Shown: positions 1,333 through 14,930 of the stretch, in pieces | Layout of the letters: each line of letters starts with the position of its first letter | How positions within the stretch are numbered: position 1 is the stretch's first letter | NCBI GenBank assembly: GCA_036939355.1 | Contig: JALLAP010000485.1 | Span: forward strand, 1 to 15,676 | DNA length: 15,676 nucleotides | From: Thalassiosira profunda | Lineage: Eukaryota; Bacillariophyta; Thalassiosirophyceae; Thalassiosirales; Thalassiosiraceae | Direction of reading: 5' to 3' | Position numbers and translations under genes: made by a program | Notes under the pieces: generated by a model | Database searches by the model: none | Seen by the model: the letters and a program-made list of their open reading frames with translations, nothing else | Told to the model about the DNA's origin: nothing

Positions 1333-2249
1333 TTACCCATCAGCCGGCTGGCAAAGAAAATTCTTTGCTGGATGCACCCCAAATGCGCGCTTCACTTCGT
1401 CAGTGAACTCAAACTCCTGCATTTTGCAGCAAGACTCTTTGTGCCGAGGCCATTCGGCAAGTTGGCAAGCTGAGGAGATTGAAAGAAAAAGAGTGGTCAG
1501 CTGTCACAAAAGAGCACAAATCGCACACGAGGTCTCCGGCGGTGCATACCTTTCGAGCAATACTGCCTTCTCTCGCAACCCGTGCAGTACAACAGGCTGT
1601 TCCGTGGTCTCCGAACGTTGCAGTAACCGCAGATTCTGGACTTGGGCAAAGTCTTGGCTCTGTGGCAATGTGCATCCAGACACCCACAGGATATCCGACA
1701 GGCGAAGAAATCGACAACCTGTCGCTCACAGCCGTGGAAGATGTCGAGATTCTTGAGAACAAAGAAGTCGTCGACTAGCTTCGTTGCTGCATCGTAGTTC
1801 TCGAGCATGAAGATGGCCATTGCGAGACCCGCGGCGCCATCGATCTTGGCTTGATTCGGGTATCGATTGTTGTCCCTCGTGATGGTCTTGACCCCGGAGC
1901 GAACAATTATATCTCTCAGATGCTTCCTGTCACCCTCGTTCTCCCACACGGAGGGAAAATATTCGTGCGTCTGAAGCGCACCGGCCAAGGACGACTGCGC
2001 GAACGTGCAGTCCTCCTGCCCCAATTCTTCAAGGAACGTGTTGAGGAACGCGGCCAATTTCGTTCCGGGCTCTGCAGGAGGAGTTGGAACGCCGTGGCTA
2101 CAAGAATCCTGTGGAAGCATCTGGGGGAGCTGATGCTGTTGTGAAGTCGGCGACGCGCGCAGCGCCTGGCCGCTCTTCGGTGGCGGTAAGGCGGCGTTCC
2201 TACTCGCCTTCCTAGCTCGCCCTTTCATGCGCTTTCTGGACGCCGGCAT
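1333..2249 (-). CDS. MYND zinc-finger protein A (two exons)
   Basis: Exon 1 is 2249-1550 and exon 2 is 1469-1333; the 80-bp intron begins GTATGC and ends CTCAG. The product has 278 residues. The N-terminus is basic (MPASRKRMKGRARKASRN) and could direct it to the nucleus. A helical middle is followed by DIFHGCERQVVDFF and a C-terminal MYND finger (about 206-247): CGYC, YCTGC, QYCSKAC and a final H...C in WPRHKESC. The splice falls inside the finger; without it the last zinc ligands are lost and the frame runs into intron sequence, which supports the model. MYND fingers usually bind proteins; no SET or other catalytic domain is visible. It is paralogous to the gene starting at 2425, in opposite orientation. 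The partner and role are unknown. Confidence 0.85.
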
Positions 2250-2424
2250 ATCTCTTGGCAGAGTTGTGCTCAGATGAATGAGTGCAGAGATTTATCATGT
2301 AAGAGTGGTGGGATGGCAGGGCAGAGGCGCGGGGGCGGGAGTGAAGAGCTGAAAGTGCCAGGAAAAAGTTTGATTTTTTTAATTCGTTTGAAAATTCAAG
2401 TGAAAAAGAGGGACAAAGGCAAAC
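2250..2424. promoter_or_regulatory. Shared divergent promoter of the MYND gene pair
   Basis: Only 175 bp separate the start codons of two paralogous genes pointing away from each other, so both promoters must lie here or overlap the genes. The right half is AT-rich, with a T-run and AAAATTCAAG just before the plus-strand start. No defined core element is recognised. Co-expression is an inference from geometry alone. Confidence 0.45.
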
Positions 2425-3209
2425 ATGACGTCGAGGAAACGTGCGAAGGGAAGAGCTAGGAGGGCGACGGCCAACGTCACCTCGGCCACTGAGATCGAGG
2501 AATGTCAGCATGGTTTCACTTACCAACAGACAGAAGGGATCTCTGAACCTATTATGGCGTTCACCAGACTGATCTCTCCCGCACTAGAGCCTGATTGCGT
2601 CAACTTCTACCAGACCGCTCTCACGGGGACCATAGACGCGTTCAGACTTCTTCCTGATCTGTGGCAGGACGACTTCCAGCGCGAAACCATGAAAAAATTG
2701 CTCATCGAATACAGCGTGAATGGACTTCTTCGACGGGAACACACTCATGAAGCACCTGGAGGTATGGCGCTCATCATTTACATGCTCGAGCAATACCAAC
2801 CAGCGACGGGGTGCGTCAAAGATATCTACACTATCTCAAATCACGATATCTTCCGCGGGGACGAGCGCTCGGTCGTCAAGTTCTACGCAAGGCGCATCAA
2901 CTGCGATTGCCTTTTGGAAAGATATCAAAAGGCAAAGTCTGTGCGCCAGACCGGGGTGTGCTCGAATTGTGATAAGCGCGTAGAGAGAAAGAGACTGATG
3001 TACTGCCCCGTCTGCGAGCAGCACCAGTATTGCTCGAAAGGTATGTGCCTTCCCCTGCAGAGATTTGTTCGATGATCCCTATCAGACCCACACTCTTCGG
3101 ACTGTATTTTTCAGCGTGCCACAAAGCAGACTGGTCGAGGCACAGAGACCTTTGTGTTCAATCCCGAGACCTGGATCTGCGCGCCGCGGCACTCTCTAAC
3201 GTCCCGTAG
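2425..3209 (+). CDS. MYND zinc-finger protein B (two exons)
   Basis: Exon 1 is 2425-3040 and exon 2 is 3115-3209; the 74-bp intron begins GTATGT and ends TTTCAG. The product has 236 residues. It opens with MTSRKRAKGRARRAT, nearly the same as the start of the neighbouring minus-strand gene. It continues with a helical region, DIFRGDERSVVKFYARRI, and a MYND finger (about 178-218) with CSNC, YCPVC, QYCSKAC and a closing H...C in WSRHRDLC. The intron sits at exactly the same finger codon as in gene A (after the first base of the Ala codon in SKAC), showing common descent. The middle region between the basic start and the finger has diverged and is shorter. An AATAAA at 3243-3248 lies 34 bp past the stop. 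The function is presumed protein binding; no enzyme domain is visible. Confidence 0.87.
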
Positions 3210-3873: not shown

Positions 3874-3974
3874 CGGGAGAGGACAGGGGAGGTGATGTGA
3901 GAGGCGGGAGGGGGGAGGAGAGTGGAGGACGAGGAGAAAGAGAAAGTCAGTGAGAGAATCCGGGCCGAAAAATA
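3874..3974. promoter_or_regulatory. 101-bp divergent spacer between helical protein and MFS genes
   Basis: Start codons of the two divergent genes are 101 bp apart. The spacer is purine-rich on the plus strand (long GA tracts, about 3890-3955), and the plus-strand start is preceded by AAAAATA. Transcription of both genes must begin here or within the neighbouring coding region. No specific factor site is recognised. Confidence 0.4.
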
Positions 3975-5947
3975 ATGAGCCACTTGCGACGCGCCCAACG
4001 CCTTCCCCCATCAACCGACGACGATGGAAGAGATAGGCGAGCAAACCGTCGGAAGCGATCGAACTATGCTGCCAACGACCACAATGAAACGATAATGGAG
4101 TCGTTAGGGAGCTCGGAGGCCGGCTCCGGCTCCGATGCACAAGAATTGTCCAACATTGCAACGCATGCACATGATGTGTCCAACTTTGCAACGCACCCAT
4201 CTTCAGACGCGGCGACGGCCGAGCGGCGCCATCGCCGCCTCGCCACGGCCCTCTACCTCCTCACGACGGCCCTTTTATTCGCCGATCAAAACCTCCTCTC
4301 GCCCAATCTGTCTGCAATCGCCGACGAGTTTCATTTCGACGATCTGGAACGCGACAAGCGATTGGGGGGAGACATCGCCGTTGCATTCTTCATGATCGGC
4401 CTCCCCGCTTCTTTCCTCGTGGGGTGCCTTGCGGACGTAGTTGATCGCAGAGGATTGCTGTTCCTGTGGGTCATTTTGATAGGAGAGGGGGCATGCCTGG
4501 CGACGTACTTCGTGCAAACGTACAATCAACTCTACTGGTGCCGGGCGCTGACGGGATGCAGCGTCGGCGGAGCGCTGCCTCTCATTTACTCGGTGTTGGG
4601 CGATTATTACGAGCCGGGCGAACGAGGGTGGGTCAGCGGCGCCATATCAATGGGATGTGGCATCGGTATCAGCGTGGGACAGGGAGCCGCCGGCGTTCTT
4701 GGGCCGAGATACGGCTGGCGAATGCCCTTTCTGGTGGTCAGTGTCCCAGCGATGGTTTGCGCTGTGGCGGTGTGGACGTGCCTCCCGGAGGTCGAGAGAG
4801 GGGCCGGGGAGAAAAGATCATTGCACACTGTGTCGATGCACGCGAATAGCGATGATGTGTTGAGAATAGAAGGCCGCGAGGGAGAGTTGGAAATGGCCGG
4901 GAGAACGGAGAACGACGCATCAGAACACTCGAACGACGACGCGGCAAACTCGTGCAAAATGAGGAGGATAAAGCAAGCCACATCGAGGAACACTCTGGTG
5001 ACCGGCAATTCGCCCAAACAGGGACTCTACGTTCAGCTGGAAAATCAAGACTCGCTGAGCAGCTCCTCTGGCTCCCCGTCGAGTGCGGCGTACAGCGTGC
5101 GTGACCGTCTTGCGATACATTACAGAAAGTCAATCCATCAGCACGTGGTGACGCTTGGGACCTTGTTGCGATGCAAATCGGTGCTGCTGGCACTGTTTCA
5201 AGGTAAACAAGTCGACATGCATCGAGTCTCTGCATTGTCTATTGCTGAGCTCTTGCTCTTTTGCCGTTTGCAGGAGCGCCGGGTTGCATACCGTGGGGCA
5301 TCGTGAACACCTACCTCAACGATTACCTTTCGTCGGACAGAGGCTTGTCGGTGGAAAGAGCGACGCTTGTCATACTCGTGTTTGGGGTCGGAAACTTCAT
5401 CGGCACATGTGTTGGCGGCGCGGGAAGCTCGTATCTGTACTCAAAATTTGGCCCTCGGTACCCTGCCATCTTGTCGTCGACGACGGCCATTGCGGGATGT
5501 GTTCCGATGTGGGGTCTGGTCAACCTTGATTTTGATCCTAAGGAGGATGGCGGAGTTCATTTTGTGCTCGGTTCGATATCGATCGTGGCTGGAATGTTCT
5601 CTGGCGTGACCGGTCCAATCGTCAAATCAACCTTGCAAAATGTGACCATGCCGCAAATGCGAGGGCAAGCCTTCGCCCTGCTGAATACCTTCGACGATTT
5701 CGGACGCGGCCTCGGCCCGGCGTTCGTGGCGTGGCTGATCGAAAGGCTGGGCGGCAGGAGGAAGGCGTTCAACGTGGGCATCTGCGGCTGGATCTTCTGC
5801 GGCATCCTCAATGGCCTGCTGTTCTACACCGTCGAGGCTGACGAGGAAACGGTGAGGTTGGGCGTCCAGCAGCAAATGATGTTGGTCGAAGGGAACGGCG
5901 CGGTTGCAAGTCAGTGCAGTGAACACGAGAGTGCGGAGATAGCATAG
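3975..5947 (+). CDS. Spinster-like major facilitator superfamily transporter (two exons)
   Basis: Exon 1 is 3975-5202 and exon 2 is 5274-5947, with a 71-bp GTAAAC...TTGCAG intron; the product has 633 residues. A polar N-terminal tail of about 88 residues precedes six predicted membrane helices. Motif A of the MFS is visible as GCLADVVDRRG. A cytoplasmic loop of about 120 charged and Ser-rich residues (271-390) separates the two halves. Splicing joins LLALFQ to GAPGCIPWGIVN, restoring the conserved helix 7, and five further helices follow, giving the usual twelve. Spinster-type carriers move lysolipids, sphingolipids or small organic acids out of compartments; the substrate here cannot be told. 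No plastid presequence is seen, so plasma membrane or an endomembrane is likely. A shorter start at 4095 (MESLGSS) is possible. Confidence 0.87.
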
Positions 5948-6427
5948 CGAGATGGCTGACTTAACTCAAGCTGGTCGCAGCGTGGGTGAAGGAGGAATGT
6001 ATTCGCGAAGTCATCACAAAGCAAAGGGCAAATGACAGCGCTGGCGTGGCGCTTGCTAGGTACAGAAATAATCTAGCCGTTACCTAGTTACTAGTTCCTA
6101 CGTGAAAATTGTTTCTCGCTGAATTAGCGTTGGGTGCAAGCAAAATCCACACATCAAGGTGCAGATGAACCATGAGGAGTCCGCGGCGCCGGTAGGAAGC
6201 AGAACGCAGCAGGCAAGCACGCACCAGGGCGCGAACATCGGGCGGCGCATAGATACAACCACGTTTTGCGATTTGGGCGCGGCATCGTTGCGGAAGGAGG
6301 TTGAATAGATTCACCTGACACATCTCGTGCTCGTCTGCCGAGGTCGAGAGGAGCGTTGACCCTGCACAATTGCAAACCGGGGCCCATTCCATCCTCGGAG
6401 ATCAAAGAGCCGTCGGTATCACAAGCC
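5948..6427. promoter_or_regulatory. Intergenic region upstream of the Pro/Gly-rich gene
   Basis: This 480-bp stretch lies between the MFS stop and the Pro/Gly-rich start. It should hold the MFS 3' UTR and the promoter and 5' UTR of the next gene. One detail is an ATG at 6165 opening nine codons (MNHEESAAP) that run directly into GTAGGA, a possible splice donor. A non-coding or short coding first exon is therefore possible, but no strong acceptor in the right frame is visible. Otherwise nothing recognised. Confidence 0.35.
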
Positions 6428-8137
6428 ATGCAGCATCCCGGCCAGCACTGGCCGCAGCAGGGCGCCCCGCCCCAAGGAGGGGCGCCGGGCCACCACCCCC
6501 ACGCCTACGGGGCCCCGCCCCCCCAGGCCGGGTGGGGGCAGCAGCCTCCCAACGGCGGGCCTCCGGGGGGCATCTTCCGCGAGCGGAACGGCGGCTCCAA
6601 GCAGCCGGGGGAGGGCGGGGGATACGGGGAGCACGGCGCCCCGCCGCACGGGTACGGCCCCCCGCAGGGCGGGTACTACCCGCCTCCCTCCTCGCAGCAG
6701 GGGCAGCAGCCTCCTCCGGGATACTACAACTCCCACCCTCCGCACCAAGGGCACCCGGGGCACGGACCGCCGCCGGGCCAGTCTCAGTGGGGGCATCACC
6801 CGAGCTACGGAGCCCCCCCTCCGCACGGTCCCGAGGGCGGCTACCCCCCGAGCCAATCGCGGCATCCGGAGAGCGAGGGCTACCCGCCCCACCCTGCGAG
6901 CGGGTACGGGCGCCACGGGCCCCCGCCGCCGTCCCACGGCAGCGGGGGACGGCCGGGGTACGGCCGCGGAGGCCCGCCGCCGGGATCGCACGGGCGGCCG
7001 CCTCCCTCGGCGGACCGCAAGGCCCCGCCCCCGCACGGGACCCCGGGGGGCCACCCTCACCGCCCCCCGCCGGGCCTCCATCCCGCCCACTCGGCCGCCT
7101 CCCGCGCCTCAACTCATCCCATCCGTCCCGCGCCCACTTCGGCGTCGACCGCCACGGCCGACGACGAAAAAGGACGGGGGAGCTACAAGTGCGGGCGGTG
7201 CGGGGTCCCCAAGAAGGGACACGTGTGTCCGTACCAGCCCCGGGTGAAACGGAAGGCGGGCGAGGCATTGCCGGAGATGAAGTGCGTGAGCACCCAGGTC
7301 GAGATGGACGAGGTGAGCCTGATATTGCTGTTTGTTTCGTTCTGAGAGATGATGGACGCTTGATGGATTTGTTGCATTGTAGGGTTCATCGCCTCACGAT
7401 TGCTTTCTTCTTTCGTTCGGCATTTTCAGTTCATGACCCTCCGGAGGCTCAACATCGAGATCCAGGGGTACCCCGAGTCCTACGCCGCCGAGCCGGCCGA
7501 CTTGGTCGGGGCCGAGGTCCACCACGCGCCCCCGCCGCCGCCGCCGGGGAGCGCGTTGGGCGGGATGCCGCCGCAGCTGCCTCCCGGTCCTCCGTCCGCG
7601 GGGCCTCCCCCCGGGCCGCCGACCGGGCTGCCCTCTCTGGCGTCGATGCCGTCCCAGCCCGCGGCGCCGGCGCTTTCGGGTCCGCCGGAAGAGGCGCCGT
7701 CGCAGTCGGCCCAGTCTGTGCCGGAGGAGGACCTGTCGAAGCCGGAGGCTCCGGAATCATCGGCGATGACGGAGGAAAAGACGGAGGCCGAGGCAAAGGG
7801 AGAGGCCGGAGAGGCGCCGGCAGAGGAGAAGGGAGGGGAGCCGGCGTCGGAGGAGGCTGCGCCAAAAGCTGGTGTAGAGATAAGCACCCAGACGGCAGAA
7901 GAGCAAAGTGACAAACCGTCAGAGGAGCCGGCGGTGAAGAGCGAAGAGGCAGAGGGAGAGGCCGAGGAAACGGAGAAAGCCAAGGAGGACACGTCCGAAC
8001 CAGCTCCCGTCAAAGAGGAGGAAGGAAAAGCCAAAGCGGACGAGGAGGCGAAGCCGGAGGAGGAGAGCAACAACAAGCGCGAGGCCGCGGGAATTGCAGA
8101 GAAGGACGAGACAGGCAACAAGAAAAGGCGCGTGTGA
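6428..8137 (+). CDS. Pro/Gly/His/Tyr-rich protein with compact CCHC motif, probably nuclear (two exons)
   Basis: Exon 1 is 6428-7312 and exon 2 is 7430-8137, with a 117-bp GTGAGC...TTTCAG intron; the product has 530 residues. Residues 1-235 are low complexity, rich in Pro, Gly, His, Tyr and Gln (PPHG, GGYPP and GYGRHG types), as in disordered RNA-binding or condensate proteins. A compact zinc-type motif follows at 255-267: C-x2-C-x6-H-x-C, within KCGRCGVPKKGHVCPYQP. The intron falls inside the following module, joining QVEMDE to FMTLRRLNIEIQGYPESY. After a Pro-rich stretch the last 140 residues are Glu/Ala/Lys-rich and end in NKKRRV, a possible nuclear signal. The motif spacing differs from the classical zinc knuckle (C-x2-C-x4-H-x4-C). 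A role in transcription or RNA binding is a guess. The start is the first ATG in frame; the frame is open a little further upstream. Confidence 0.8.
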
Positions 8138-8237
8138 AGGAAAGGATGGATCGTTGATAAAGTGACTATTATTAATACATTTGCATAGAGCGACCAGTGT
8201 AATTGGCTCCATCCCGCTGTGAATATTAGAGGGAGGC

Positions 8238-9968
8238 CTAGTCGCAGGTGCCGCAGGTCTTGACGCAGTAGTCGCTGACGAGCAGGGAGGCATCCCCGTC
8301 CGCGCCGCCCGCGGGCTGGGCGCACAGGCCCCGGAGGTAGCTGGGGAATGCGGCGAGCTGCGCCATCTCGTCGCACCGCACGCCGACGGAGTTGACGAAG
8401 GCGGGATCGTCGGCGCAGGGCAGGGACGACGAGGCGGCCGATTCCGCAGGTGCTTCAGCTGGAGCCTCTGCCGCTGGCGCCTCTGCGGCAGGCTTTTCCA
8501 CGGGTGCTTCTGCCGCCGGCTCGGCATACGATGGCGCCTCCGCTGCGGGAACCTCCGCTGCGGGAGGTTCGACCGTGGGCTCCGGACGAGGCGCAGGCTT
8601 GTTCTCGGCCACGGCCGGTGTTTCTGCAGCCGGTGCTTTGGCCGCCATCGGCCCCTCGGCCACCGGAACTTCAGCCACGGGCTCTGGCCGAGGCGCCGGC
8701 TTCTCCTCCACCGGTGGCGCCTCAACCACCGGAACTTCTGCAACCGGTTCAGCCGGCTCCGGCGCCGCCACTGCAGGAGCATTCGGCTTCTCCGTCCCGT
8801 TCCCATCCTCGCACAACCCGCACGACCGCGGACAAAAGTCGCCGATCGACAGCAGCTGCCCCAGCGCCTCGCCGCACCGTTCCGTCAGCACGGGCGATCG
8901 CGGGATGCCCCCCACGTAGTTCTCGCAAGTCTTGCCCTCAAAGACGAACGTGGCATCGTCCGCGCACGCCTCCTCCGCGACCTCCCCCGCGTGCAACTCC
9001 TGCAGCGCCGCCTCCTCCTCCGCCTCCCCGGCAAGGCCCGCGTCGAGGGCGCCCTCGGAAATGTCCTCCTCGAGCATGGCGAGTTCCTCGCTGCTCCCCA
9101 TCACCTCCACCCTCTGCACGTCGGCTTCGAACTCCCGCGCCTCGGCCTCCTTCTTCTTCTCGGCCTCCGCTTCGCCGTCCAACTGGGCAGCGTACCCCGT
9201 CTGCTCCATCTTTGCCCATTTGCCGTCGCCGCACAGCCCGCAGGACTTGCGACAAAAATGCTTGAGCAGGAGCTCCTCCCCGTCGTTGTCGACGATGCCG
9301 GTGCCCTGGGCGCACCGCGCCTGGTGGAGGGGGATGCGTCCCACCCGTTCGACGAAGGTGGCGCACGTCTTGAGGTTGGCGTGGACGAAGCGGGCGTCGT
9401 CTTCGCACTCGTCGGTGGGCTGGGGAAGGTGCGTCGACGGGGCCGGCTTGGATGTATCCCCTCCGTCGGCGGAGCCCGGCGTCGGAGTTTCGTGCGAAGG
9501 CATTGCAGTTGCATCGAGAGACTTGGGTTGCGCATACGAAGGCTGGCTGGGCGGCGGGCTGGCGTCCTTGCCCCAGCCCCACAGTCCGCGATGTGGCGAA
9601 TCTCCCGGGGCGTCGCCCGGGCCAGGAACGCCGCGCAGCGCCCTCGGTGCATCCACTGGCGAGGATGCCTGCCAGTGCGCACGATGCTTGCGCCCACCGA
9701 GCGCCAGCAAGACAAGGGACGCGGCCGCGAGGCCCTTGCCAAAGGGGCGACATGCCCCGCCCGACCGCGGCGGCGGCGGCGGCGCGTGGCAGCGCGCGAG
9801 GGCGTCGAGGGCGGCGGGGGGATCGTTGTGAGGCGGGGACGGCATATTTCCACACGTCGCGGTTTCTGCACGTCGCGGTGCACCCAGCGAGATATCGTCG
9901 ATCGCAGGCGCGCTGGAGGTCGTCGCGCCGAGTTGTGAGGGCGGCAAGCCGTCATCTACCGAGGGCAT
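8238..9968 (-). CDS. Protein with three ShKT-like domains and a Pro/Ala/Glu repeat linker
   Basis: This encodes 576 residues. A short hydrophobic stretch near 79-92 (GLAAASLVLLALGG) after a polar N-terminus may be a signal anchor, placing the rest in the lumen or outside the cell. Three six-cysteine modules lie at about 188-246, 335-386 and 518-575, each beginning C-x-DD-x-x-F and ending C-x3-C-x2-C (FCRKSCGLC, FCPRSCGLC, YCVKTCGTC). This matches the ShKT-like fold, common in algal secreted proteins. Between the first two lies a Glu-rich probable helix (about 258-332), and between the last two a Pro/Ala/Glu repeat. ShKT modules bind channels or accessory surfaces in animals; in algae they are often fused to oxygenases, but no enzyme domain is present here. 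The ATG at 9968 was chosen because codons upstream are antisense to the next gene. Nothing marks it as a toxin. Confidence 0.82.
   Translation of the reverse strand: MPSVDDGLPPSQLGATTSSAPAIDDISLGAPRRAETATCGNMPSPPHNDPPAALDALARCHAPPPPPRSGGACRPFGKGLAAASLVLLALGGRKHRAHWQASSPVDAPRALRGVPGPGDAPGDSPHRGLWGWGKDASPPPSQPSYAQPKSLDATAMPSHETPTPGSADGGDTSKPAPSTHLPQPTDECEDDARFVHANLKTCATFVERVGRIPLHQARCAQGTGIVDNDGEELLLKHFCRKSCGLCGDGKWAKMEQTGYAAQLDGEAEAEKKKEAEAREFEADVQRVEVMGSSEELAMLEEDISEGALDAGLAGEAEEEAALQELHAGEVAEEACADDATFVFEGKTCENYVGGIPRSPVLTERCGEALGQLLSIGDFCPRSCGLCEDGNGTEKPNAPAVAAPEPAEPVAEVPVVEAPPVEEKPAPRPEPVAEVPVAEGPMAAKAPAAETPAVAENKPAPRPEPTVEPPAAEVPAAEAPSYAEPAAEAPVEKPAAEAPAAEAPAEAPAESAASSSLPCADDPAFVNSVGVRCDEMAQLAAFPSYLRGLCAQPAGGADGDASLLVSDYCVKTCGTCD
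8430..8790 (-). repeat. Degenerate Pro/Ala/Glu/Val coding repeat in the ShKT gene
   Basis: About 120 codons encode short units such as PAAEAP, VAEVPV and KPAPRPEP. The unit KPAPRPEP occurs twice, each followed by a VAEVPV- or PAAEVPA-type run, suggesting a larger duplicated block. The plus strand also reads open here purely because of the repetitive GC-rich composition. It is probably an extended linker. Confidence 0.7.
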
Positions 9969-10139
9969 GGCTGGTCCGTTTGCAACGCTTTGGGCGGCCT
10001 CGCTCGCGGATTCGTTCACGAGGGGCTGGTCAAAACGGCAGAGGACGCGTGTCGCTGGGAAAATCGGTTCGCTGACACAAAGAAAAATCTGCGAGATTAG
10101 TACATATCTAAGTATTGTAGAGAAGAGGCCAGAGGCAAC
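9969..10139. promoter_or_regulatory. Divergent spacer between ShKT and SDR genes
   Basis: This 171-bp region separates two divergent start codons. An AT-rich core (about 10080-10122, including TACATATCTAAG) lies 20-60 bp before the plus-strand ATG and could hold core promoter sequence. No named element is certain. Confidence 0.4.
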
Positions 10140-11198
10140 ATGGCCCCTCGCATCCTCGCCCTGTCGATCCTCCTGCACCCCCTCCTCGCCGCGATGGCAA
10201 TGCCCGCGTCCCCTCCGTCCCTCACCGTGTGCGTCACCGGCGCCAACGGCTACCTCGCCTCCCACATCGTCCGACAGCTGTTGCAACAAGGCCACGCCGT
10301 GCACGCGTGCGTGCGAGATGCCGAGAATGCGGCGTCGGTGCAGCACCTGCGGGAGATACCGTCGTCGTCGGCTGGACAGCTGACGCTTTTTTCGACGGGC
10401 GACATGGGCGATGCGTCGCTGGCGGGGCGATATGAACAGCCGCTGACGGGGTGCGATGCAGTCGTCCACGCGGCGACGCCGCTGCGGCCCAAGCTTTCCG
10501 GCGGGGAGTTCGACGGGATGCGCGACATGGTCCAACCGGGCATGGCGGGGACGCAAGAAATGCTCGAGGCCATTCTCAAGTGCCCCTCGGTCAAATGTTT
10601 GGTGCTCACGTCCTCCATGTCGGCCGCCGCGCCGCGGCCGGAGCCGGAGGTGAAGGACGAGACTCACTGGTCCGACGACGCCGCGCAGTTGGCCCGGGGG
10701 AATTATTACGGCTGCGTCAAGACGAGGCAGGAGCGGCTGTGCCGCGAGTTCGTTCGAGAACAGAAGGAGAAGGGAACTCTGCCGAGGGACTTTCGATTCG
10801 CTGCCATTTGTCCAACGATGATCCTCGGTCCGCCCGTGGGCGCCGAAAAAGATGGGTACCTATACACCCCCGCGGGGACGATGGGGTCGCTCCACAAATG
10901 GATGACCGGGGGACGACCCTCGGCGCCCAACGATTCCATGAGCTTTATTGACGTGCAAGATTGCGCGGCGATGCATATTGCGGCCATCGAGAATGGGGAC
11001 GCGGAGGGGCGGTACTTCTCGCCGCTCCTTCAGTGCAGACCCTGCAACGTTGCTTTGCTCTGCCTTCTGTACCTTGATCTCGTCCGTAGGCTCGGCCAGC
11101 TTCAATCCCTCTTCGACTTGGTCGAGCTCGGAGTATTGCACCATCTTTTCTGTTGGGATGCTTTGGGAGACAAAACGCTCTTCGTCTTTGGCTCGTAG
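10140..11198 (+). CDS. Extended SDR, dihydroflavonol/cinnamoyl-CoA reductase-like, with aberrant C-terminus
   Basis: This encodes 352 residues. A hydrophobic N-terminus (RILALSILLHPLLAAMA) looks like a signal peptide, and the ATG context (CAACATGG) is good. The NAD(P)-binding motif TGANGYLAS is at 33-41, a catalytic-type Ser in LTSSMSAA lies near 159-163, and Y190-x3-K194 (YGCVK) completes the SDR active site. CPTMILGPPV and a DVQDCAAMHIAAIE segment are typical of the DFR/CCR-like group, which reduces carbonyl groups with NADPH; the substrate is unknown. The family continues for about 50-60 residues after GRYF with a tryptophan- and proline-containing end. Here, after GRYFS (about codon 296), the frame instead gives a Leu/Cys/Phe-rich tail unlike the family. 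The gene may be C-terminally rearranged, or the true end may involve an intron I could not place. Confidence 0.75.
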   Translation: MAPRILALSILLHPLLAAMAMPASPPSLTVCVTGANGYLASHIVRQLLQQGHAVHACVRDAENAASVQHLREIPSSSAGQLTLFSTGDMGDASLAGRYEQPLTGCDAVVHAATPLRPKLSGGEFDGMRDMVQPGMAGTQEMLEAILKCPSVKCLVLTSSMSAAAPRPEPEVKDETHWSDDAAQLARGNYYGCVKTRQERLCREFVREQKEKGTLPRDFRFAAICPTMILGPPVGAEKDGYLYTPAGTMGSLHKWMTGGRPSAPNDSMSFIDVQDCAAMHIAAIENGDAEGRYFSPLLQCRPCNVALLCLLYLDLVRRLGQLQSLFDLVELGVLHHLFCWDALGDKTLFVFGS

Positions 11199-11405
11199 TG
11201 ATTTGTGTGAGCGCAGCAAACGTTAGAGAACAGGGAAAGCTCACGCCTGGGCTCTGAGGAGCATGACCAGGATCAGCTCACGTCTGGGCTTATGAATCTC
11301 TTGAGCTGTAGAAGAGCAAGACCAGAAGCTTCGCAGGAAGGTGGATCTTTTGGTGAACCCCCGGCCGCCGCCCCGCGCGCACTCGACTCGACAATAGCTA
11401 ACGAT
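11020..11405. other. Disturbed region: SDR tail with coding-like antisense frame, then TerC upstream
   Basis: From about 11200 down to 11030 the minus strand reads about 57 codons without a stop and with ordinary charged protein composition (for example ERFVSQSIPTEK, EEGLKLAEPTDEIK), while the plus-strand SDR tail over the same bases has antisense-like composition. The minus frame has no ATG at its head, and a stop lies just upstream (about 11224-11226). It may be a relic exon of another gene. No family is recognised. Bases 11199-11405 hold no gene and should contain the TerC 5' region. Confidence 0.35.
11238..11290 (+). repeat. Pair of 16-bp imperfect direct repeats
   Basis: AGCTCACGCCTGGGCT at 11238-11253 recurs as AGCTCACGTCTGGGCT at 11275-11290, with one mismatch and a spacing of 37 bp. 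It lies between the odd SDR tail and the TerC start. The meaning is unknown; it may be a small local duplication. Confidence 0.6.
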
Positions 11406-12621
11406 ATGGTGCAGAAGAGAGGCGCGGCGACGGCGCTTTGCGCGGCAGTGCTTATTGCTGGCGCTCGGGCGTTCGTTTCGCCCTGCAGACACATCGATGG
11501 CGGTATTCAGAGTGGAGGTTTTGATGGCGGTAGGGCGTTCGTTTCACCCTTTGCAATTGCAACCTGTAGACGTGGCGGTGGTGTTCAAGGTGGATGTTTT
11601 GATGGCGGTGCGATGGCGCCATCAGCGAATGGTGTTCTGCAGCTGCCGTCCCTCGCATTGCGGGGGACACTGAACGAGTCTATGGAACCCGTCGAGGAAG
11701 ACGCATACGCCGAAGCGATCCAACGGACAATATTCTACATTGCAATCGCAGCTGCATTCGGGGCCTTTTTATGGATGAATGATCCTAGTGAAGGAGAGGA
11801 GTTCTTCGCGGGCTACATTCTTGAAAAGAGCCTTTCGGTCGACAACCTCTTCGTCTTCCTCCTCCTCTTTGACTACTTCAAGGTGCCGGCTCCGTATCAA
11901 GAGCGCATTTTAACGTGGGGCATATACGGAAGTGTAGTCATGAGATCTATTATGATTGGGTTGGGAGCTGCTGCGCTACAGAATGCGCACGAGATACTGC
12001 TGGTGTTTGCGGCCATCCTGATCTACAGTGCAGGGCAGGTACTGTTTGATGTCGAAGACGAGAAAGAGGAGGATTTGAGCGCCAATCCAGTGATCAAGTT
12101 GAGCCGGAACCTGTTTCCATCGACGGATTCATACGATGGCGATCGCTTCTTCACTTTTGAGGATGGGGTCAAGAAGGCAACGCCTTTGTTCATCTGTATG
12201 GTTGCCGTCGAATTGAGCGATGTGGTGTTTGCAGTCGATTCGATCCCTGCAGTCTTTGGAGTCACAGAGAACCCTCTGATTGTGTTCTCGTCCAACATGT
12301 TCGCAATACTGTGAGTCTATTCATCCTCGTCGTGTCTGCCGGTTATTTCTCGTCCTGATTTTCATTTCTCACATGATGTGTTCATCACTCAATCAATGAA
12401 GCGGCTTACGGAGCCTGTACCCTATATTGAGCAAGGCCGCAACCGACCTGAAGTACCTTGAGCCTGCGGTCGCGGTGATACTTGCCTTCATCGGAGGCAA
12501 GATGATTGGAGAGTATTTTGGATATGGCATTTCGACCGAGGTTGCATTGGCTGTGATTGTCTCGTTACTTGCATCTGGAGTTGCTCTCTCGCTGCGTGAA
12601 AAGCAAGATGGCAACGAGTAA
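11406..12621 (+). CDS. TerC-family integral membrane protein, plastid-targeted (two exons)
   Basis: Exon 1 is 11406-12310 and exon 2 is 12402-12621; the 91-bp intron begins GTGAGT and ends AATGAAG, joining FAIL to GLRSLYPILSKAA. The product has 374 residues. The N-terminus is a signal peptide ending GARA, followed by FVSP (A22/F23), matching the diatom ASAFAP bipartite plastid presequence. An upstream in-frame ATG at 11292 would bury that signal, so 11406 is preferred. TerC signatures are clear: EKSLSVDNLFVFLLLF, VELSDVVFAVDSIPAVF with its acidic membrane residues, and LKYLEPAVAVILAFIGGKM. About seven to eight membrane helices are present. Plant plastid TerC is needed for inserting thylakoid membrane proteins, and bacterial relatives handle Mn2+ or tellurite stress. 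The likely location is the thylakoid or another inner plastid membrane. Confidence 0.9.
11467..11611 (+). repeat. In-frame tandem repeat in the TerC plastid presequence
   Basis: GGGCGTTCGTTTC occurs at 11467-11479 and 11533-11545, a period of 66 bp (22 codons). Both units run RAFVSP, then a Gly-rich spacer, then FDGG; the second unit carries about 12 extra bases. A third, degenerate FDGGAMAPS follows. The cleavage-site-like AFVSP motif is therefore present twice. Confidence 0.8.
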
Positions 12622-12724
12622 GCAGCATAGGTAGAGAAGCAAAAGTCCACACATCAGACCGATCAAAGACAAGCAAACATTACTTTAGACCCCCAATGCC
12701 CCTTTGCATCTCCTTGCATCGAAG

Positions 12725-14930
12725 TTACACTGTGTATTGGCAGCACGGAGTTACTCCGTCTGCAACGGCAGCCCTCAACGTCGAGCTCTCATTCAGGTTC
12801 TCTTCTTCGGGAGGCGACTTTAAACTCGCACCGATACCATTCTCGACCTGATCTGGATCGATATATCCGCCGTTCGAATGTTGGTACGAACTCAGCTCCG
12901 TGTTGTTGGAAAGGGTGGTGGTCCTCTCGATGGGCTCGCATCGCGCCGTCTCAGACACTCCGCCGGACTCTATTCTGCTCTTCTTCTCGTCTTTGTGCTT
13001 CACCAGCGAGTCCTGGGCGTTGAATAGCACGTGTCCGACGACCATGCCGCACACGGTGCTTATGAACAGCGGGGCCGAGTAGGTCATGATCACGAGCATG
13101 ATGAAGTAGCCCATCGTCAGCTGCACTCCGTACACCAAGGCCGAGAGGCACAGCCTGCGGGCCCCGGCCGGCAAGGCGTACACGGTCCGGCGCTTCCACA
13201 ACACGAACTCCAGCAGTATCCCAAAGAGGATGGACCCGAGCGCGGCCAGGGTGAATTTGCCGGGGGTGGTCAGCACCCAGGATTGGAAGAGGTAAATCAC
13301 GCAGGTCGTGCCCTGCCAATTGAAGCCGTCCATGTACATGCTCGTCCCGCCGTAGCAGTACTTCTCCTCCATGTCCGGCATGGTCTGCGAGGCAGAGTGG
13401 TCGTGCCCGCCCTGCTGTGTCTCCTTCGCCTCGTAGGGCAACTTGTATCCGGGCACCTCCTTATCGGTCGCCTGCCAGCTCCCGATGCAGTTGGAGTTGT
13501 GGACGAAGCCTCCCTGGCACGGGTCCGTGGCCGTCTTGATCGAGGTATCCTCGGACAAGTTGGACGGATCAAGACAGTACAGAGAGTATCCATCGTTGAC
13601 ATAGTGCTCGGCGTGCTCGGCCTCCGGTATGTCGATGCACTGGCGCCAGCAGAAGAAGTTGGTCTGATTGTTGCACGCTGCCGGGGAGCTGGCGTGTTGG
13701 AGCCGGCGTCGTCCACGACNAGCAGAAGAAGTTGGTCTGATTGTTGCACGCTGCCGGGGAGCTGGCGTGTTGGAGCCGGCGTCGTCCACGACCGCTCGCT
13801 GCAACTCCAGCAGAGAGTGTTGACAATGCGTCCTCGTTGAACGCAGTGGTTCCACACCCGTCCACCGGGGAAGACGGCACGTGAGCGCCGTGCTCATTCA
13901 AGTTGAAGGCGGGCAACGTCTCCCCGTATTTTCCATATTTCACGGGAGACGATGGCGATGGCTCATTGATGGCCATCATCGACGCTGGCAGAAGGTGCAT
14001 CTTTCCGTACCACGTTCTGTGCGTATTTTTCGAGAGGCGCAGCGCATGCGACGCAGCCAGGAAGGGCTCCTGCTGCCCCTCCCGCGCGGGCAGCCAGTAC
14101 TGGGCGCCCGCCCCCATCATGATGACAATCTCGTCTTCCCCGAAAGAGAGTGGTTCGCTTTGCCCTTTCAAGTAGAAAGAAGCGTTGTCCGTTGTGCGAG
14201 AGCGGCAGTCCATCGCGGGGACGAAGGAGAGGAAGAAGCCGGCATCGGTGTGGTAATCCAGCGTGGCGGTTTCCCCCTCTCGCCCACCGCTGATGCTGCC
14301 ACTGTCTCCCCCACCGTTCTCCTCCCCATCTCCCCCTTTGGTATACACATGGAAGTGCTCCAGGTGATTTGTTTCGGAGAGAACGCGGCGGTAGCTCTGG
14401 CGCTCTCCATTCACCTCCCCTCTTTCCCCATCCAGCGCATCCACGAACGCATCCGCCGCATCGGCCACCGCGTCCCGCAAGTCCTCGAACGCCTCGTGGG
14501 CGGCCCGCCCGCACCCCTCCCGCACCCACGACGGAAGTTCTAACGCGTTGTGCTCCTCCCCGCCGAAGCCGACGGTGGCGCTGGCGAGCGTCCGCCGCAC
14601 CGCCCCGTCGGGGAGGGAGATTTGCTGCAGGTCCTGCGGGTGGGATTGCAAAGCGTCCTCAAAGGCGCCGGGATCGAAGGCGGGACAATCGCAAAGGTGG
14701 CCCAGCGCGCGGCGGCGGAGGGCGACAAAATTTTCGCCCGCGGATATGCGAAGGAGGCCGTGAGAGTCGCGGAGGAGGCGGTGCGGGTCGAGGGCGGGGG
14801 CGTCGGACGGGATGGAAGCCGATCGAAGCTGATGGAGGGACAGTCTCGGTGCATCGACCGACGGTGCCGCCAGCGCCGGCGTCGACGCCAGGGCCGCCAC
14901 CATTGCAAACGCCACTTGCAGCGTCGCCAT
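12725..14930 (-). CDS. Ctr copper transporter fused to a DSBH-oxygenase-like N-terminal domain (interrupted by assembly duplication)
   Basis: Two minus frames share the codons of a 72-bp duplicated segment around an N at 13720. Treating duplicate plus N (73 bp) as one extra unit puts both in one frame of 710 codons. The start at 14930 opens a signal peptide (MATLQVAFAMVAALASTPALAA). Residues to about 320 hold LDYHTDAGFFLSFVP (H227, D229), H295 in ASHALRL and R305 in HRTWYGKM, the HxD...H...R order of 2-oxoglutarate/Fe(II) jelly rolls. A Cys-containing stretch (about 400-500) leads to MYMDGFNW, then the Ctr channel: helix 1 near 535-554, helix 2 with MLVIM (M587, M591) and helix 3 with GMVVG (G604, G608). 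These are the Cu(I)-conducting MxxxM and packing GxxxG motifs. The tail is polar and ends CCQYTV. Ctr proteins import Cu(I) as trimers. Whether the oxygenase-like part is active is unknown. Confidence 0.8.
13648..13792. repeat. Perfect 72-bp direct duplication around a single N (assembly join)
   Basis: Bases 13648-13719 and 13721-13792 are identical, both beginning AGCAGAAGAAGTTGG and ending CGTCCACGAC, with the ambiguous base at 13720 between them. Identical sequence on both sides of an N is the usual sign of two contig ends that overlap but were placed side by side. The extra 73 bp shifts the frame of the Ctr fusion gene. Confidence 0.9.

Follow-up and report, generated by a model that had tools for sequence, protein, structure and literature searches.

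The minus strand of the window, by which we mean the whole stretch of 15,676 nucleotides analysed here, raises the question of whether a Ctr copper channel has been fused within one gene to a large secreted-side domain, and whether that domain carries the metal centre of an oxygenase-like fold. A preliminary description of this DNA had proposed both. The locus is a real minus-strand gene, though not a single open frame as printed; it is read here as two halves, the N-half and the C-half, on either side of a single N at position 13720 (Table 1). The explanation that we tentatively favour is a protein of about 710 residues in which a Ctr core is joined to a domain of some 500 residues; this domain, predicted to be secreted, would take up copper on the outer side of the membrane and deliver it to the channel.

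Table 1. Features of the Ctr locus, with positions in the window and the basis of each assignment
Feature	Position	Strand	Basis
Seam: two exact 72-nt copies flanking a single N (13720)	13648-13792	.	Repeat comparison
N-half, open frame of 403 codons, predicted secreted-side domain	13721-14930	-	Codon preference from 14630 seam-ward
C-half, 330 codons plus stop, remaining ectodomain and Ctr channel	12725-13717	-	PF04145, codon preference
Signal-peptide-like segment, residues 1-22	14865-14930	-	Hydropathy alone
Candidate double-stranded beta-helix stretch, residues ~185-317	13980-14378	-	Motif order and hydrophobic strands by eye
H227-T-D229, HxD of the proposed metal site	14244-14252	-	Motif; hhalign register
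H295, proposed distal histidine	14046-14048	-	Sequence
R305, proposed 2-oxoglutarate anchor, then T-W, no serine at +2	14016-14018	-	Sequence
Stalk between N-domain and channel, C-half 24-125, 5 Cys and 5 His	13343-13648	-	Residue counts
MxM (MYM), C-half 127-129, just ahead of TM1	13331-13339	-	Motif search
TM1, C-half 155-173	13199-13255	-	Hydropathy; 136-172 aligned to 6m97_A
TM2, C-half 193-211	13085-13141	-	Hydropathy; inside 191-239 alignment to 6m97_A
Ctr signature MxxxM-x12-GxxxG, exact, C-half 207-228	13034-13099	-	Motif search
TM3, C-half 214-232	13022-13078	-	Hydropathy; inside 191-239 alignment to 6m97_A
Cys-Cys near C-terminus, C-half 325-326, inferred copper hand-off site	12740-12745	-	Sequence

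The Ctr channel and its probable long N-terminal region

The C-half is assigned to the Ctr family of copper transporters on the combined basis of profile, signature, hydropathy and alignment. A profile search of the C-half returned PF04145 with an E-value of 6.1e-14 and a score of 53.3 bits, well above the cut-off of 25.3, and the best solved relative is a Ctr1 chimera (6m97_A, E 3.5e-6), to which C-half residues 136-172 and 191-239 were aligned. Hydropathy analysis gives five peaks, four of which overlap across residues 193-232 and are taken as TM2 and TM3 connected by a short loop. The exact motif found here, MxxxM-x12-GxxxG, is the signature of Ctr proteins according to passages in PMC9502191 and PMC3103425. 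With a profile match above the cut-off, the exact signature and three hydropathy helices, the earlier proposal of a complete Ctr channel with MxxxM and GxxxG is borne out. Among the matches listed, this is the single PF04145 hit in the genome, and a second contig discussed below (C420) carries the tail of the gene only.

Upstream of the channel, the minus-strand ATG at 14930 (MATLQ...) was confirmed as the start of the frame, and residues 4-22 of the N-half form a hydrophobic, signal-peptide-like peak in hydropathy, which matches the signal peptide proposed previously. The Ctr N-terminus is described as usually extracellular in part of PMC3103425, and hydropathy together with this usual topology suggests a signal peptide and an outward orientation for the N-terminal region. 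The earlier suggestion of a Ctr protein whose secreted-side N-terminus is unusually long is supported. A search of the genome for a second copy of the N-half found none.

Codon preference was scored in blocks of 120 nt after training on 23 open frames, all of them long and taken from elsewhere than the locus, and it is used as supporting evidence only, since these frames were selected by length alone. From 14630 toward the seam, the predicted frame of the N-half tops all six frames in every block (7/7). In the C-half it tops the three sense frames in 8/8 blocks, but an antisense frame scores slightly higher in two of the eight, which start at 13717 and 13237 (0.05 versus 0.04, and 0.24 versus 0.20). 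By this measure the beginning of the N-half is ambiguous, because an antisense frame outscores the predicted frame in both blocks from 14870 to 14631.

When the locus is placed beside known Ctr/COPT proteins (PF04145; yeast Ctr1 and Ctr3, human CTR1, and the CTRs of diatoms and Chlamydomonas), it shares with them the three helices, the MxxxM-x12-GxxxG signature, an MxM ahead of TM1 and a terminal CC. It differs in that, in place of the short Met/His-rich tail of these proteins, it likely has some 500 residues at the N-terminus, with the signal-peptide-like start. A single MxM before TM1 and an HDH...M...M...C cluster near the end of the stalk lie on the presumed extracellular side of the C-half, in which no Met-rich repeat was seen. 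Chlamydomonas CTR1 and CTR2, as Page et al. are said to have described in 2009, likewise have a large extracellular part, but the Cys-Met motif reported for them (CxxMxxMxxC) was absent from the C-half when searched for. Long N-termini also occur on the Ctr proteins of some other protists. Given such long termini in Chlamydomonas and in these protists, a Ctr channel with a large ectodomain may already be present in databases without having been remarked upon.

Short exact peptide patterns, which detect close relatives only, gave no relatives of either half in viral contigs and none of the N-half in bacterial or archaeal contigs. Two viral contigs matched a degenerate version of the TM2 motif of Ctr, and these matches were rejected as chance, the open frames having by eye the look of phage structural proteins. 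A degenerate RTWYGKM pattern matched no viral contig (0) and one Ureibacillus contig, where the match was again attributed to chance, as the frame is broken by stops (a 15-residue tblastn match, E 0.018). At the level of titles and the openings of abstracts, no fusion of a Ctr protein with an oxygenase was found among the papers listed, and no publication was found in a search that combined 'Ctr copper transporter' with '2OG-Fe'.

The N-terminal domain and its possible likeness to 2OG oxygenases

For the N-half, the preliminary description had gone further and proposed a jelly roll with a metal centre. The four residues on which this rests are all present, and their numbering was exact, with H227 at 14252, D229 at 14246, H295 at 14048 and R305 at 14018. 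In our judgement by eye, the order of strands, the HTDxG motif, a hydrophobic strand following it, another strand, the distal histidine and the R-T-W that ends the series fit an isopenicillin-synthase-like domain. With all the tests below considered, an oxygenase-like fold is a plausible candidate for the N-half. The isopenicillin-N-synthase-like 2OG/Fe(II) oxygenases (PF14226 and PF03171) have the same order HTDxG ... H ... R, with HTD in register; the N-half differs from them in having no significant similarity and no RxS, and in being predicted to be secreted and tethered to a membrane.

This part of the proposal is a sensible guess, which comparisons with families and folds neither established nor excluded; a profile search and a structure prediction of this region had been suggested for it. 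The N-half had no match in Pfam (E limits of 1 and of 10, with HMMER filters that drop most weak matches), in NCBIfam (E up to 5), in PHROGs (E up to 10) or among PDB sequences (E up to 10). AlphaFold, run without relatives, gave pLDDT values of 34.5 for the full N-half and 34.8 for residues 121-335, which are too low for a fold to be read.

Dedicated 2OG profiles were also compared with the N-half. The first was built from six C-domains, five taken from PDB chains and one (L033) from this genome, and recovers 6/6 of the genome loci indicated by PF03171, L033 itself being in the profile. Run unfiltered with E up to 100 against 1,778 sequences (1,276 open frames and 500 shuffles besides the two halves), it did not report the N-half. 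Of the 1,032 shuffles with the motif kept in place that this profile reported, 457 equal or exceed the score of the real domain. A ten-sequence profile, with five members from this genome, reduces this to 83 of the 1,245 reported (2,000 made), and it places a later strand, DEIVIMMG, in register with 2OG enzymes, not significantly. In hhalign, HTD lines up with the HxD of 2OG enzymes, though with a probability no higher than about 1% (E 0.09 for the one comparison, not significant), and the score of residues 120-335 is beaten by 4/150 shuffles. The profile scores are thus at or barely above noise.

The residue pattern HxD-x(40-150)-H-x(8-12)-R says little by itself, since 8,567 (43%) of 20,000 shuffled versions of the N-half contain it; the stricter form with H[TSC]DxG is found in 150 of 20,000. 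It is a realistic possibility that the protein is an ordinary Ctr importer whose long, lineage-specific N-terminus has some other fold and no metal site, with H227, D229, H295 and R305 coincidental. The frequency of the looser pattern speaks for such a coincidence, as do the lack of support from 2OG families, PDB or the six-sequence profile and the long N-termini of Chlamydomonas Ctr proteins. The rarity of the stricter HTDxG form in shuffles speaks against it, and the agreement of HTD and DEIVIMMG with the register of the 2OG profiles points the same way without reaching significance.

It is improbable that the domain is a working Fe(II)/2-oxoglutarate oxygenase which is anchored in the secretory pathway by a copper channel and acts on a lumenal substrate. 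The HxD, the distal histidine and an arginine ten residues on are all in place, and 2OG enzymes are numerous in the genome (7 PF03171 and 29 PF13640 matches), but the locus is in neither of these lists and profile support is absent. RxS is the 2-oxoglutarate anchor of the IPNS/DIOX branch, and here T-W comes after R305 in place of x-S, so that the arginine alone is kept; in addition, 2-oxoglutarate is scarce outside cells. Filing the N-half as a 2OG oxygenase was rejected because a profile match and the RxS anchor were both looked for and neither was found.

Under the explanation that we tentatively favour, a fused domain that gathers copper, the N-domain would be a divergent double-stranded beta-helix of the 2OG type, with H227, D229 and H295 predicted to lie in one site. 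This site, the Cys/His stalk and the HDH and MxM motifs would then serve in the capture of copper and not in oxidative catalysis. For such a fold speak the HTDxG...H...R order, the hhalign register with its 4/150 shuffles and the ten-sequence profile; against it speak the lack of family and PDB matches, the six-sequence profile, the commonness of the looser pattern in shuffles and the low pLDDT values.

The join between the two halves

The proposal of one continuous gene stands in part: the two halves agree in phase, as set out below, but the printed frame is broken at N 13720. The sequence on one side of this N (13648-13719) is repeated exactly on the other (13721-13792), and the frame as printed is shifted because the seam adds 73 extra letters. 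Single Ns were surveyed in a sample made up of the window and stretches of other contigs (281,881 bases, about 7 kb of which were read twice). Three of the four, the one at 13720 included, have exactly 72 identical nucleotides on either side, and for this reason the N at 13720 is very likely to mark a seam left by the assembler. Exact repeats of this one length at separate places would fit an assembler that joins contig ends overlapping by a fixed word length. The other two such Ns are at L026:3243 and L029:271 (G000 contig C18), and the fourth single N (L026:8772) has no flanking repeat. Other genes of the assembly may look frame-broken through the same 72-nt seams.

The 72 nucleotides that the halves have in common are translated by both in the same phase, as LQHASSPAACNNQTNFFC, at residue 386 of the N-half and residue 6 of the C-half, an agreement expected by chance in 1 of 3 cases. 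Because of this shared phase, the two halves are likely to be one gene of about 710 codons (403 plus 330 minus the 23 in common). The 72-nt signature, the lack of another occurrence of the 72-mer and the codon preference to either side of the seam also speak for a single gene.

Much of the window has a counterpart, at about 85-93% identity, in a divergent contig from a second haplotype or strain (G000:C420; 13,022 bases), where window 4048-9845 is inverted (L007, L008). This contig ends within the final 72 codons of Ctr, and it is unable to confirm the join of the halves because it stops inside the Ctr tail. These codons are 97% identical in protein, and the 533-nt DNA match that contains them is 92% identical; the Ctr tail is probably under constraint, a weak indication, as the 533-nt match also includes other DNA.

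That the locus consists of two separate genes, or of misjoined contig ends, with a secreted protein on one side and a short Ctr starting at a methionine before TM1 on the other, is quite unlikely. In favour of this reading, the frame is printed broken with an N at the join, in-frame methionines lie shortly ahead of the MxM motif, and the second haplotype is unable to confirm the join; against it, the overlap resembles the usual signature of the assembler, its 72-mer had no other occurrence in a sequence search of the 21.8-Mb genome, the phase is shared, and no stop codon lies between the halves within the common stretch.

A possible copper route, and the neighbouring genes

To our knowledge, little has been described of how copper is handed over to Ctr channels beyond their short Met/His tails. 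If the fused protein is as we tentatively propose, it would most likely span the plasma membrane or an endomembrane, its large domain facing away from the cytosol in the manner of other Ctr proteins. Copper would be collected beside the pore by the predicted ectodomain together with the Cys/His stalk and the HDH and MxM motifs. Reduction would probably take place elsewhere, through a separate protein of the ferric/cupric-reductase type. Cu(I) could then move past the methionine residues of TM2 and leave the channel for hand-over close to the C-terminal CC. Such a route would be in line with passages of PMC9502191, in which copper enters diatoms by way of reductases and CTRs.

A role of the ectodomain itself in reduction, which had been among the earlier suggestions, is disfavoured because the genome has separate Ferric_reduct-type matches. 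One is at C6:44483 (69.9 bits, above the cut-off); on C408, a Ferric_reduct match below the cut-off adjoins an NAD_binding_6 match above it.

As to how such a protein might have arisen, it could be speculated, as a rather doubtful extension of the fusion with a copper-binding domain, that a eukaryotic copper importer absorbed a secreted beta-helix of the 2OG type, the His-Asp-His site of which was turned from catalysis to capture, giving a new subfamily of ectodomain-bearing Ctr proteins in which a single polypeptide would scavenge the metal as well as import it. If this were true, a folded metal-binding domain within the transporter would constitute a concrete capture step and an unusual use of an oxygenase-type fold. 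Copper in the open ocean is scarce and mostly complexed, according to part of PMC9502191, which would be relevant if the organism is a marine alga. Should the domain have another fold, the copper importer would still bear a long ectodomain that belongs to no recognized class.

Several other genes were recognized during the analysis. Beside the Ctr locus, a gene for a TerC-family membrane protein occupies window 11211-12622 on the plus strand (PF03741, E 1.8e-35), with an apparent intron at about 12315-12410 as judged by eye. Its leader contains GARAFVSP, which we take to resemble the plastid leaders with a marker phenylalanine found in algae that have secondary plastids of red origin, and an alga is therefore the probable source of this DNA. 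A major-facilitator transporter is spread across two plus-strand frames (window 3954-5306 and 5249-5947) and is probably split by an intron near 5200-5300. On the minus strand, a long open frame at 8238-10859 contains Cys-rich ShK-like modules (PF01549, just above the cut-off) and stretches rich in Ala, Pro and Glu. Window 1497-2291 (minus strand) and 2404-3075 (plus strand) are paralogous neighbours with 32% identity over 189 residues (E 7e-38); they have no Pfam match, and their Cys-rich end is presumably MYND-like. Elsewhere in the genome, two near-identical PF03171 oxygenase genes (L033 and L034) lie at both ends of one contig (G000:C425), in opposite orientation and about 20 kb apart.
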